A stretch of 42,131 nucleotides of DNA from Pseudomonadota bacterium (GTDB taxonomy: Bacteria > Pseudomonadota > Gammaproteobacteria > Tethybacterales > Persebacteraceae): positions 1 through 42,131 of the forward strand of contig JAHZKE010000002.1 of assembly GCA_022600535.1 (NCBI GenBank), given 5' to 3'. Below the pieces are notes generated by a model. It saw nothing but the letters and a program-made list of their open reading frames with translations, searched no databases and was not told where the DNA came from. This document shows positions 4,899 through 41,483 of this stretch, one piece after another; the first letter of the stretch is position 1, and each line of letters starts with the position of its first letter. Made by a program: the position numbers and the translations under genes.

Positions 4899-5103
4899 TG
4901 GTTAAAAATGTGTGCAATGCACAATAAAAATAGAAAAAAGTGTGAAAAAAACACAAAAAAGTAAAAAATTTTCCAACTTTTTGAATAAAAATTTTAGTCA
5001 AATAAACTATTGTTAATACATCTATTATTATTTTATTGACATCATCTTATACCATTTTTTAATAAAAACAACGTTACTTTTTGCTGCGGTGCAATAAAAA
5101 CCC

Positions 5104-8877: not shown

Positions 8878-9738
8878 GTGCCGACAGAAAAAAACGAATC
8901 GTTGGCGGCAATCGCCGCGACGTTAGCACGGATAGAACAACAACTCGGGCAACATTTTTCTCATCCCAGCGCGCAATCCTTAGCCAGCGGGCATTGCTGG
9001 CGTTGGCAGGTAACCTCCTTTGGCGGTAAACTCATCCCACTGCCCACTCCCACCACCGTTGCCCTACACGATTTAATCGGTTTAGAAGAAAACATTGCCA
9101 TCATAGACAAAAACACGCGCCAATTTATCGCCGGTTGCGAAGCAAACCACGCCTTACTCACCGGCGGGCGCGGTTGCGGTAAATCTACCCTTATCCGCGG
9201 TTTATTTAGCAAATATCAACGGCGCGGTTTGCGCCTCATTGAGACCGACGCCGCAGGGTTAGCGCAATTATCAATGTTGCAACCCTTGTTGGCGGGGCGC
9301 GAAGAAAAATATATTTTATACTGCGATGATTTATCCTTTCGCGAGAGCGATCAATTATTCAACCGTATTAAAAGCGCAATGGATGGCGCCCTGACCTCTG
9401 CCAGCAACATGCTGATTTATGCCACTTCCAACCGGCGTAATTTAGTTGCCGAAAAATATAGTGATAACCTATCGCCACTCACCGCCAGCGAAGACGACAT
9501 TCAACCCTTAGAAACGCTAGACGAAAAAATTGCCCTGAGCGATCGTTTTGGAATATGGCTCTCGTTTTACGCCCCCGATGCCGAGCACTACGACCATATT
9601 GTGCGGCATTGGTTGGCGCATTTTAAAATTAAACCCACCGATGTACTGATACAACAAGCGCGTAATTTTGCCGACCAACGCGGCTCCCGCAACGGTCGCA
9701 TCGCCCGCCAATTTGCGGTATTGCAAATTAAGCGTTAA
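8878..9738 (+). CDS. DUF815-family P-loop ATPase
   Basis: AAA-type ATPase of the DUF815 family, function unknown. The Walker A is TGGRGCGKST, and the Walker B/sensor region is YILYCDDLSF with the following LFNRIKSAMDGAL and YATSNRRNLV, all hallmarks of the family. The C-terminal part includes LSDRFGIWLSFY and a helical lid. The start is uncertain: GTG at 8878 (chosen, 286 aa, 4 nt after thrC) or TTG at 8848 (296 aa, overlapping thrC by 26 nt); neither has a clear ribosome site. Probably cotranscribed with hom-thrC. Confidence 0.85.
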   Translation: MPTEKNESLAAIAATLARIEQQLGQHFSHPSAQSLASGHCWRWQVTSFGGKLIPLPTPTTVALHDLIGLEENIAIIDKNTRQFIAGCEANHALLTGGRGCGKSTLIRGLFSKYQRRGLRLIETDAAGLAQLSMLQPLLAGREEKYILYCDDLSFRESDQLFNRIKSAMDGALTSASNMLIYATSNRRNLVAEKYSDNLSPLTASEDDIQPLETLDEKIALSDRFGIWLSFYAPDAEHYDHIVRHWLAHFKIKPTDVLIQQARNFADQRGSRNGRIARQFAVLQIKR

Positions 9739-36192: not shown

Positions 36193-36450
36193 GCTCCGCT
36201 CGTAGAGTTAAAGACAAGTTCCAGTGCACTAAACTTAAAACAAGCCGCTCACCGAGCTTAAAATAAGTCGCTCACTGAGCTTGTCGAAGTGCCATAGAGC
36301 GTGCTACATCAACGTTTTAAATTCCCCTCCGTCGTGTGGAAATTACCACCTGATTAATTACAAGGATTTTTAAATTGCTGATTTTCCGTCAATAACGTTG
36401 CATTAGTGCCCAAAGAATAGTGCTTAGACATATCGGCGGAACATTTAGAT
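36193..36450. repeat. Tandem repeat unit A (distal, diverged)
   Basis: Starts GCTCCGCTCGTAGAGTTAAA and contains in order: AGTGCACTAAACTTAAAA, TCGCTCACTGAGCTTGTCGA, the 15-mer TTAAATTCCCCTCCG, and a copy of the last 90 or so bases of the downstream methyltransferase gene. It resembles unit B (36451-36688) along its whole length, with substitutions, small indels and an extra partial GCTCACCGAGCTTAAAATAA segment. Confidence 0.8.
36354..36450 (-). pseudogene. Decayed copy of the methyltransferase 3' end
   Basis: Translates as SKCSADMSKHYSLGTNATLL and so on, against SKYSADMSKHYSLGTNAALL in the intact gene. One T is missing near the end, which shifts the frame and moves the stop to 36354-36356. 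It has no start and is a by-product of the tandem duplication. Confidence 0.75.
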
Positions 36451-36688
36451 GCTCCGCTCGTAGAGTTAAAGACAAGTGTTTCCAGTGCACTAAACTTAAA
36501 ATAAATCGCTCACTGAGCTTGTCGAAGTGCCATAGAGCGTGCTCATCAACGTTTTAAATCCCCCTCCGTGTGTGGAATTTAACACCTGATTAATTACAAG
36601 GATTTTTTAAACTCCTGATTTTCCGGCAATAACGCTGCATTAGTCCCCAAAGAGTAGTGCTTAGACATATCGGCGGAATATTTAGATG
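36451..36688. repeat. Tandem repeat unit B (overlaps the intact gene's 3' end)
   Basis: Begins at GCTCCGCTCGTAGAG directly after unit A and runs into the methyltransferase coding sequence, sharing ATCGGCGGAA-ATTTAGATGC with unit A up to 36688. The stop codon of the gene (36594-36596) lies inside the unit. Confidence 0.8.
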
Positions 36689-37757: not shown

Positions 37758-38450
37758 TTAGTCGCGGGCACCGCCAAACATCATGAGCAAGTGTAACAAG
37801 CTTTGAAACAAGTTGAGCACCATGATGTAGAGTACCATCGTTGCCATGATGTAGTTATCTTCGCCACCGCGGACAATGCGATTGATAGTGAAAAGAATCA
37901 AACCCGAAGAAATGACAATGACAAACGAAGAAACAGCGAGGGCAATCGCACTAGATTGAAAGAAAGAGTTAACAATCACAATCGCAAATAACATCCACAT
38001 CCCCATGCCGAGTGCTTTGCCAAATGAGATAGAAGAAAAATCGCGTTTGGTAACAGTGGCATAGCCCGCTAAACCGAAAAACATAGTAGCAGTGCCACCG
38101 ATTGCTAAACCGACTAATTCGGCACCATTGCTGTAGCTCCCTAAGGCATAACCAACAAGAGGACCGGTAAAATAGCCCATGACCAACGTAAAAAACAGCA
38201 ACCAAGCAATGCCTTTAGCACTATTGCGGTTTTTAATCACCATCGCTTGAATCCCAAACATGGCACCGATAAATACAATGATTGATATCCAACCTAATTT
38301 TTCCATAAGAGGAAATAAAGCCCCAAAATACGCCCCGGCAATAGTGGGGAGCAAGGTAATTGCCAGTAAAGTATAAGTGTTGCGCAGTACGCGGTTGGTC
38401 GTGCCAACATCTAATTGTGCTCTGCCAGCGGCAGGTAAGGTGTAACGCAT
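37758..38450 (-). CDS. Bax inhibitor-1/YccA family membrane protein
   Basis: A 230-residue integral membrane protein with seven predicted helices. The family core is visible: VLRNTYTLLAITLLPTIAGA, GLAGYATVTKRDFSSISFGK (the conserved loop after the fourth or fifth helix) and the C-terminal IMVLNLFQSLLHLLMMFGG. E. coli YccA is an FtsH substrate and modulator; the role here is inferred. It has a good promoter, GGAG before the ATG, and its own terminator, so it is monocistronic. Confidence 0.92.
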   Translation of the reverse strand: MRYTLPAAGRAQLDVGTTNRVLRNTYTLLAITLLPTIAGAYFGALFPLMEKLGWISIIVFIGAMFGIQAMVIKNRNSAKGIAWLLFFTLVMGYFTGPLVGYALGSYSNGAELVGLAIGGTATMFFGLAGYATVTKRDFSSISFGKALGMGMWMLFAIVIVNSFFQSSAIALAVSSFVIVISSGLILFTINRIVRGGEDNYIMATMVLYIMVLNLFQSLLHLLMMFGGARD

Positions 38451-38496
38451 TTTTTAGTTCTCCAATGTCTTAATCAAGGTATAAGGATATACTCTA

Positions 38497-38525
38497 ATTA
38501 TAATGGTTTGCAGGGTCAGATTCAA
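38497..38525 (-). promoter_or_regulatory. Sigma70 promoter of the YccA-type gene
   Basis: On the minus strand: TTGAAT (38525-38520), a 17-nt spacer and TATAAT (38502-38497). It gives a leader of about 40 nt that carries GGAG before the ATG. Confidence 0.75.
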
Positions 38526-38862
38526 ATATTTGCACAGTATCAGCCCATATTTGGCAAAGAGTGAGCATTTTTCAGCAAATTATAAGCCGCTACCAAAATA
38601 GCACCCTGCGCGGTAGCAACAGTTAAAAGAAAATTCGCCCACTGAGCTTGTCGAAGTGTCGTTAGTTAAATTAATAAACTTAGAAAAAAGCACAATCTTA
38701 AATTCCACACCGATGGAAGGGTGGTAACAAGGTCATCGGGGTGGTCTACGGCGAAGGCAAAAAACTGCAATCAAATATTTTTCTTTTTCGTTGCACTCTT
38801 TTGCTACCTTGCGTATTTTAGGCGAGAGTATTTTAAATTTCAATTTTTTTGAAAATAAAAAT
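38526..38862. other. Non-coding gap with repeat fragments
   Basis: Contains CACTGAGCTTGTCGAAGTG (38640-38658), also present twice near 36273 and 36511, and TTAAATTCCACACCGA (38698-38713), identical to 13446-13461. An AT-rich hairpin (TTTCAA/TTGAAA) near 38850 follows the KAP gene's extended stop. No complete gene is seen. Confidence 0.6.
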
Positions 38863-39030
38863 TTAAGTAACAAATAAATTATCCAGAGTTGTAATAATTT
38901 TATTTATATATTCAGACTTTTCGTGTATTTCATGATATTGATTTTTATAACATTCAACTGGTCTTGCTAAAGGATGTATTGTTTGATCTAACTCTAAATG
39001 TAAAATAAATAAATCTGCTAATACGTCAAA
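38863..39030 (-). other. Out-of-frame C-terminal extension of the KAP ATPase gene
   Basis: Directly after the nine-A run (39039-39031 on the minus strand) another frame stays open for about 56 codons to a TAA at 38865-38863. It begins FDVLADLFILHLELDQTIHP and ends INKIITTLDNLFVT. It has the same composition and charge pattern as the main ORF, and reading eight A instead of nine joins the two into a product of about 410 residues. Confidence 0.65.
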
Positions 39031-40096
39031 TTTTTTTTTCTGTAGTAATTTTTATTTTAGATTTAAATTCTTCATCTGTAATATTTTTGTTAGATAATTT
39101 TGTATAAAAACTGGGGAATTTATTTTTAATAATAATTATATAAGTGACAACGATAGCATTAGAAATAGGTTTTTGGGGGTCAAAATCTAATAAAGATAAC
39201 ATTATTTTGAGAGTGAGTAAATTTCTTTCAATTTCTCTAAATGATAATTGAAAATGGTTTGAAAATTTTTCTGATATTGTTATTATTTCATCAGTACGCA
39301 TTGAGTTAAATTTTAATCTATCCATACAATGATTTATATAGATTAAGTTATCAGTGCCATTTTTTTGTTTAGGCAATGGAAGGCGTAAATGTATAAATTT
39401 ATGTAAATAATTGTAACTGTCTATATCATTGCCGTATTCATGTTTAATAGATTGGCATAATTGTTCGCTGTTTGCTACTAAAAGAAAAACTATATTGGGA
39501 ACAGAGAATAAATGTTTAATGATTTCTAATATTTTAATAGCATAAGTTGGTTTGCATCTATCTAATTCATCAATGATAAATATAATCGGTTTGCTTTTAT
39601 AGTCTTTCGTCATATTATCTGGCAGTGCAGTTAGGTATTCTTTTAGTTTTTTTAGATTGTCTTCATTTTCATTAATTTTTTCCAATAATTTTTCAATGGC
39701 TTCAATACTATTACTTACTGCGCCAGCCGTGAATATATTCAAAAAATCTTTTGATACTGCGAGTATTATATTTTTTAATTTTTCTTTTTCTTTTTTAGAC
39801 GTTCCTTTTTCTGCTAAGCGATAAATTTTTTCCATGAAAGGTAATAAAGGTTGTTCATAATAATCGTCGGCAAAGACATCGTAATAGACAGTACAATGCC
39901 CTTCGTTTATAAAATATTTTTCAGACATTTTGGCAAATACAGTTTTGCCTTCACCCCACGGCGCATCAAGTAAAATTACCCGTTCATCAGGCATAGCGTT
40001 AATTATTTTTAATAACTGCTCCGCGAATGGTTTTCTATTAAAAATATCACTATTTTCAAATGTCATGTTTTCATTTGATGTAGGTTGATTCGTCAT
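39026..40096 (-). CDS. KAP-family P-loop NTPase (frame broken near the 3' end)
   Basis: A 356-residue ATPase as read. Walker A is DAPWGEGKT (about residue 45), Walker B is IIFIIDELDRCKP (about residue 175) with the D-E-L-D-R-C typical of KAP NTPases, and a sensor-like FLLVANSEQL follows. No clear transmembrane insertion is seen between the motifs. It is much more AT-rich than its neighbours, suggesting transfer. GGAG sits 7 nt before the ATG. The stop comes straight after a run of nine A; with eight A the protein continues to 38863. KAP proteins occur at membranes and in some anti-phage systems, but no such role is shown here. Confidence 0.82.
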   Translation of the reverse strand: MTNQPTSNENMTFENSDIFNRKPFAEQLLKIINAMPDERVILLDAPWGEGKTVFAKMSEKYFINEGHCTVYYDVFADDYYEQPLLPFMEKIYRLAEKGTSKKEKEKLKNIILAVSKDFLNIFTAGAVSNSIEAIEKLLEKINENEDNLKKLKEYLTALPDNMTKDYKSKPIIFIIDELDRCKPTYAIKILEIIKHLFSVPNIVFLLVANSEQLCQSIKHEYGNDIDSYNYLHKFIHLRLPLPKQKNGTDNLIYINHCMDRLKFNSMRTDEIITISEKFSNHFQLSFREIERNLLTLKIMLSLLDFDPQKPISNAIVVTYIIIIKNKFPSFYTKLSNKNITDEEFKSKIKITTEKKI

Positions 40097-40099
40097 AAA

Positions 40100-40234
40100 T
40101 TACTCCATTTCAATGCCTTCATTAGCGGTACTTTTTTGCAACTCTTTAACCTGATTATACGGAAGAAAAGCGCTGTAAAAATTATTAAATATGCTCTCCC
40201 AGTTGCTACTGGGGCGTTTGGTTTGCGTTGCCAT
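40100..40234 (-). CDS. 44-aa ORF preceding the KAP ATPase gene
   Basis: Starts with ATG at 40234-40232 behind a GGAG ribosome site and ends with TAA at 40102-40100, 3 nt before the KAP ATG. The product begins MATQTKRPSSNWESIFNNFY, then has a short SAFLPYNQVKELQKS helix and an acidic end (EGIEME). The KAP ribosome site (GGAG) lies in its last codons, so translation of the two is probably coupled. It has no recognised family and no signal peptide or membrane helix. It could be a partner, an inhibitor or a leader peptide. Confidence 0.6.
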   Translation of the reverse strand: MATQTKRPSSNWESIFNNFYSAFLPYNQVKELQKSTANEGIEME

Positions 40235-40316: not shown

Positions 40317-41483
40317 TCATTCAGTATCCGCCACTTCACTCCCAAATTGCTCCGCCCAAGCATCTGCAAAGCGTTCTTTATATCGGGTTATTGCGGTTTC
40401 CGATAAATTCCATGGGTCTTCTTCGTTGTGTAAAATCTCGGCGTATTCGCGGTCGCCCTCCGTCCAATAAAATGCCGATAAGGCAAGGGGCAAGGGGCAT
40501 AGTTGCGGCAGGGTGCGATAGATTGCCCCGGGGGGACCATCACGCCCGGGGAGTATGCGTTTTTCGCCTAAGTATCCTTCAAAGGTATAAAAGGCATCGT
40601 TGGCGGGTAAAAATTGCAGTTGGTAATCTACTTGCTGCTTGCCATTAGTAATATCGTAACTGCTGTATATGCCGTTACTGTCTTCTAATGCTAATAAATG
40701 GTTTATGGTGTTTGCCGACATAAAGCCCGCCGATCGCCACTGATGGCGTTGTTCATTATGCGGATACAGTTCGTTAGATGAGATTGCTGCATCTATCTTT
40801 ATGGTTTCGCCAGCGGTAAAATGCTCGCCGCCAATTAAATACGTGCGCATGTAGTTATGCTGTTGTAGGATGACAGCACGTGGTTGTTTATTTTCTAAAA
40901 CAATAAAAACAGCGGTGTAATGGTCTAATTGATGCCAATCTTTACTGTCGGCAACAAGGTTAATTAGTTGCTGTTGCCAAGGGGATATGCCGGCAGGCAA
41001 GCCCGAAGCGCGAAAGGTAAAGTGATAGGATAAAAATGTTAGCGCGCGGTTGCCAAGTCCGGGGAGTTCAACAGTGCTGTAGCTAACATTGCCGTAGGCG
41101 ACAGGTGGGCTTGGGCGCGATTCGCCGTGGTGGCGAAAGTACGCAGCGGGGTCGTGTTTGTGTTGATTTAATTGTGCGGCGGTCGGGTTGTTAATGGTGC
41201 CCTCGGCGGTGGTGAGTATGCCGTCGCCAATATAATCTTGATAAAAGTTCAAAGGTCCTTCGGCATCGTTGTCAATGAATAGTTGCGGTTGGTATTGTCG
41301 TAGTAGTTTTTGTTCCGCAGTGTTGGCGGCAGTGTCGGGCAGCGCAGAGCGGATTTTTTCGAACCCTTCTATTTGGGTGAAATTGGATTCTTGATTGCCG
41401 CAACCTGCAAGTAGCAGAGAGAGCAGGGCGAATAGCGGCAGGCGTAAAAGGTGGGATAGGGGCATGATAGTGAGTGTGGGCAA
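40317..41483 (-). CDS. Lipoprotein of unknown function
   Basis: A 388-residue protein with a lipoprotein signal peptide (hydrophobic LFALLSLLLAGC, Cys at residue 28). ATG 41465 would give a shorter and cleaner signal peptide and may be the true start. I do not recognise the mature domain. It has a repeated His/Tyr/Trp-rich pattern (SYHFTF, WHQLDHYTAVFIVLE, LQQHNYMRTYLIGGEH) and a beta-rich composition without repeats or obvious catalytic motifs. Base composition is like the chromosomal genes, not like the KAP cassette next to it. It is transcribed divergently from the GFA-domain gene. Probably anchored in the envelope. Confidence 0.6.
   Translation of the reverse strand: MPTLTIMPLSHLLRLPLFALLSLLLAGCGNQESNFTQIEGFEKIRSALPDTAANTAEQKLLRQYQPQLFIDNDAEGPLNFYQDYIGDGILTTAEGTINNPTAAQLNQHKHDPAAYFRHHGESRPSPPVAYGNVSYSTVELPGLGNRALTFLSYHFTFRASGLPAGISPWQQQLINLVADSKDWHQLDHYTAVFIVLENKQPRAVILQQHNYMRTYLIGGEHFTAGETIKIDAAISSNELYPHNEQRHQWRSAGFMSANTINHLLALEDSNGIYSSYDITNGKQQVDYQLQFLPANDAFYTFEGYLGEKRILPGRDGPPGAIYRTLPQLCPLPLALSAFYWTEGDREYAEILHNEEDPWNLSETAITRYKERFADAWAEQFGSEVADTE

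Follow-up and report, generated by a model that had tools for sequence, protein, structure and literature searches.

A frame-broken KAP-family ATPase gene of the PDC-S20 candidate family and an unconserved small ORF upstream of it in a Persebacteraceae genome

The window analyzed here is a stretch of 42,131 nucleotides from a Pseudomonadota bacterium of the family Persebacteraceae (GCA_022600535.1, contig JAHZKE010000002.1). Read in minus-strand order, a predicted lipoprotein-like gene (40317-41483) precedes a small open reading frame (ORF) of 44 aa (40100-40234, minus strand), which is followed on the same strand by the 356-aa ORF of a KAP-type P-loop ATPase (39026-40096). A C-terminal coding remainder of the latter continues in another frame past a run of nine A residues (38863-39035, minus strand) and gives way to a flank at 38451-38862 that is gene-free according to the ORF list and contains, according to a repeat search, one copy of a dispersed repeat; beyond it lies a gene for a Bax-inhibitor-like membrane protein (37758-38450). 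The small ORF starts with the ATG at 40234, can be extended to 57 aa at most by using in-frame upstream ATGs, and has its own GGAG at the rather long distance of 11 nt 5' of the ATG. Between its TAA and the KAP ATG at 40096 lies only TTT, so that a single stop divides two ORFs sharing one frame. The KAP ribosome-binding site, read directly from the sequence (GGAG, 40103-40106, minus strand), falls within the final two small-ORF codons and lies 6 nt from the KAP ATG. The original prediction had described this layout, a small ORF with its own GGAG ending 3 nt before the KAP ATG and carrying the KAP ribosome site in its last codons, and we found it as described. It had also placed the pair between stretches of non-coding DNA, which holds for the roughly 410 bases downstream, where no gene-like ORF was found, and for a short gap of ~80 nt between the 44-aa start and the next upstream gene. 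No convincing direct repeats or target duplications were found to flank the AT-rich block, and no RNA family matched at the locus. The dispersed repeat, a short ACTGAGCTTGTCGAAGTG-like sequence of REP type, occurs in gene-free stretches at 38635-38665, 36496-36529 and 36265-36291, with 11 further matches on other contigs of the genome.

The identity of the larger ORF as a KAP P-loop ATPase is borne out by its domain and motifs. The Pfam KAP_NTPase profile (PF07693) is matched over positions 1-291 of 293 with 147.7 bits against a cut-off of 20 (E 5.5e-43). Both Walker A (PWGEGKT) and Walker B (IFIIDELDRC) are intact; an alignment with 49 relatives has 22 invariant columns, among them W47, G48, G50 and K51 of the former and D176 and E177 of the latter. 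In PADLOC, the best family is PDC-S20 (E 1.7e-74, 250 bits), the next other family being PifA with 50 bits, and the protein also matches PHROG 8614, to which no function is assigned (E 4.7e-66). The AlphaFold2 model is confident (pLDDT 87.7, pTM 0.85) and predicts a P-loop core in which two long helices separate Walker A from Walker B; the C-terminal part is helical as well. Its best match among solved structures is RdrA of RADAR, followed by ORC/Cdc6-type AAA+ proteins; these structures are matched in part (TM-score 0.48-0.58 by query length), and the general AAA+/STAND architecture may account for the resemblance. Transmembrane segments are typical of many KAP P-loop NTPases and are not required for Pfam membership; hydropathy revealed none in the helical insert, where the highest 19-residue value was 1.42 (0.29-1.56 in relatives). 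Elsewhere in the window, positions 9157-9411, inside a 296-aa ORF, match the KAP model weakly and score under its cut-off; this is probably another P-loop protein.

Although the original prediction had the KAP gene extending to 38863 as a single gene, its frame ends at the stop at 39026, after 356 aa, and 38863 is reached only after a change of frame. From the nine-A run (about 39027-39035) to 38863 a different frame remains open for 55 codons, which occurs with P = 0.004 in shuffled sequences of that composition. GC by codon position in this tail is 0.40/0.19/0.09, as expected for AT-rich coding DNA, and falls from the first position to the third as it does within the KAP ORF itself (0.35/0.25/0.21). 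Relatives are 431-474 aa long, leaving the open KAP frame 75-118 aa shorter. Taken together, the open 55-codon frame, the coding-like GC by codon position and the greater length of the relatives indicate that, as assembled here, the gene has a frame break close to its 3' end. Sequence similarity between the tail and the tails of relatives was not found (mean z about 0), and the tails of relatives are poorly conserved even among themselves. PDC-S20 proteins span about 430-475 aa in one frame, whereas here 356 aa are open and the remainder lies in another; we have taken the short frame as a break in a PDC-S20 member, not as the mark of a different family. A nonsense codon cutting off an N-terminal extension of the KAP protein was also considered and rejected, because relatives start near the ATG at 40096 and none has similar upstream sequence.

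The break may stem from a sequencing or assembly error, from a real loss of function, or from a shift that slippage rescues. Homopolymer runs are common sites of both error and slippage, and this tempers the reading in which the KAP gene is the dead, decaying remnant of a transferred gene, truly broken in the living population. That reading draws on the position of the break at the nine-A run, on an open frame 75-118 aa short of the relatives' length and on the immediate surroundings of the KAP gene, where no mobile-element genes were seen; yet apart from the break there is no further stop and neither the ATPase motifs nor the KAP domain shows damage, and we regard this reading as possible and rather improbable. 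Slippage during transcription at homopolymer runs in AT-rich genes is itself established. Acting at the nine-A run, inside which the frame breaks and beyond which the coding signal resumes, it would yield a mix of short and full-length KAP protein from a gene that works despite the break, an explanation that we consider unlikely.

Composition sets the KAP gene apart from the chromosome around it. As the original prediction had it, the gene is clearly more AT-rich: its GC content is 0.27 compared with 0.489 (sd 0.038) in the other large ORFs of the window, about 5.7 sd lower, and its GC3 is 0.21 compared with 0.483 (sd 0.049). Only one genome of the same family (G002) has both flanking genes, and there they lie apart, neither adjoining a KAP gene and with no empty site identified between them; another (G001) carries a KAP gene that is 31% identical in a different setting. 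The low GC, the separation of the flanking genes in the first genome and the different location of the KAP gene in the second fit an acquired accessory gene, and by its look the KAP gene was horizontally acquired. The proposed transfer finds further support in relatives that reside in prophages and plasmids. A short KAP-like fragment with stop codons was also found in the first genome (G002:C3:335978-336163, E 5.7e-4) and may be what is left of a further copy, or else a match by chance.

The small ORF was the core of the original prediction, in which it formed a two-gene system with the KAP gene and a similar ORF was expected directly upstream of KAP homologues. Such an ORF was present at 0 of 185 non-redundant loci of KAP relatives, all of them at most about 43% identical to the window protein, an outcome that the original prediction had itself named as refuting it. 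ORFs of 35-90 aa of any kind abut the start of the KAP relative at 35 of the 185 loci; when the upstream DNA is shuffled the rate is 16.5%, so the arrangement alone is close to chance expectation. Searches for the small ORF itself returned no Pfam, PADLOC or NCBIfam match, a PHROG match at chance level, no copy in 20 relatives, no convincing copy in 369 genomes of the class (the best, with E 0.001 per genome over 369 genomes, was judged chance) and only chance matches in plasmids and phages (best E about 1, in Vibrio phages). Judged by the genes of the window, its codon use is coding-like at 7.0 bits, a value that none of 2000 shuffled open frames equaled; by the standard of the KAP gene it scores -4.3 bits, and its GC3 is 0.44 vs 0.21 in the KAP gene. 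With this host-like, rather than KAP-like, codon use, the small ORF may be translated as a real small protein, and its sequence looks to be the host's, not cargo brought in with the KAP gene.

If the 44-aa protein were dedicated to the KAP ATPase and translationally coupled to it, as an antitoxin, a regulator or a partner that binds the trigger, this would account for the 3-nt spacing on the same strand, the KAP ribosome site within the small ORF and the coding-like codon use. Toxin-antitoxin and two-gene defence modules are recognized by a conserved adjacent partner, and neither the 185 upstream regions nor the 369 genomes contained one; any small ORF occurs upstream of relatives near the shuffled rate, this one is without relatives anywhere searched, and its composition differs from that of the KAP gene. 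We therefore consider a coupled module very unlikely. Slighter still is the chance that a single-gene candidate system has here become a two-component one, the 44-aa ORF encoding a young regulator or antitoxin, specific to the lineage, that was recruited to control the PDC-S20 ATPase, possibly with tuning by slippage at the nine-A run. Judged from these comparisons, the small ORF and the KAP gene do not make a conserved pair, and the former is most likely incidental or a leader. The wider lesson is that a nearby small ORF is no evidence of a coupled module once conservation is tested, and a false lead has been removed.

Relatives of the KAP protein are 24-43% identical to it and scattered over many phyla, prophages and plasmids. 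None was found above about 43% identity, and single-sequence scans of genome and viral contigs did not find a close relative. The PDC-S20 model has matches, some of them weak, in 32 of 369 genomes of the class, and KAP relatives occur in plasmids and in phages or prophages, including 319 IMG/VR stretches; in a Vibrio phage, for example, one lies near an integrase and a methyltransferase. In a survey of neighbours at 37 chromosomal loci, 5 of 130 were type I restriction specificity subunits, and the others included integrases, a BsuBI/PstI restriction enzyme, AbiEii-like AAA proteins, Mu-like head genes and ordinary metabolic genes; the survey was run without a matched random control, so we treat it as supportive only. 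At 8 of 80 loci from the viral collection (L151, L152, L154, L158, L160, L161, L173 and L174, KAP start about 4986-4998), a secreted-looking, cysteine-containing protein of ~60 aa (KNYPCSGKKGGVSHC...) is encoded immediately ahead of the KAP gene. This viral protein also has relatives in Moraxella, Haemophilus and Acinetobacter phages, and it is unrelated to the small ORF of the window.

The original prediction had likened the locus to defence modules. That affiliation is supported by the PDC-S20 match and by relatives in prophages, in plasmids and beside restriction genes, and a defence role of the KAP gene, though inferred, is plausible. PDC-S20 is a PADLOC candidate single-gene anti-phage family whose defence status is that of a candidate only, and a literature search found no paper naming it. 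KAP proteins are mostly uncharacterised, and many of the surveyed neighbours are ordinary metabolic genes, as would suit a housekeeping or regulatory protein unrelated to phage defence; against this stand the patchy distribution and transferred composition of the gene and the prophage, plasmid and restriction-gene contexts, which make such a role improbable in our judgment. The suggestion that the locus is an undescribed system was not upheld, the KAP protein falling in a family already listed by PADLOC.

Taken as a whole, the explanation that we favor, with moderate confidence, is a single acquired PDC-S20 KAP gene, frame-broken, with no conserved partner in the small ORF and, if it works, likeliest a STAND/AAA+-like switch. 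Under this explanation, one KAP gene of the PDC-S20 branch would have been transferred in between two unrelated chromosomal genes, and the break near its 3' end would have come from a sequencing or assembly error or from real functional loss. The small ORF would be lineage-specific, with host-like codons, and at most a leader whose ribosomes could aid initiation at the KAP start. If functional, the KAP protein would act as a single-protein switch that is kept off at rest and triggered by a phage product; ATP-driven oligomerisation would follow, after which the infected cell would be stopped. As PifA and Tmn suggest by analogy, the insert of helices that separates Walker A from Walker B might bring this about at the membrane. 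We infer this mechanism from kinship with PifA and Tmn and from the RdrA-like fold. The PDC-S20 family, whose genes stand alone in prophages, in plasmids and at restriction loci and whose core is RdrA-like, would be worth testing via an intact member.

Several known systems share features with the window protein. QatA, the ATPase of the Qat system, has a related ATPase core (E 1e-11 in PADLOC and 1.3e-12), but the window protein reaches 47.2 bits against a QatA cut-off of 600 and its neighbouring genes are unrelated; a Qat system, defined by QatA above the cut-off together with its partner genes, is thus not what lies here. RdrA, the RADAR ATPase and best fold match, is about 800 residues long and acts with RdrB, whereas the window gene has no such partner beside it. 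PifA, the T7 exclusion protein of the F plasmid and a KAP-family member, shares the KAP domain through a weaker match (E 4e-14, residues 4-245), but its model of 720 positions is about twice as long and the window protein lacks a counterpart of the PifA C-terminal half. Tmn is likewise a KAP-family NTPase, a defence protein with two transmembrane domains (PMC11846954), in contrast to the window protein, for which no transmembrane segment is predicted. PDC-S20, finally, is matched over positions 10-376 of its 464-position profile, and its members likewise showed no conserved partner gene in the 185 upstream regions and the 37-locus neighbour survey; the window frame differs in stopping at 356 aa, at the frame break. 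The window gene is thus new but belongs to a candidate family already known, and it may be damaged; its protein, with a nearest relative at most about 43% identical, is a divergent addition to this widespread candidate defence family.
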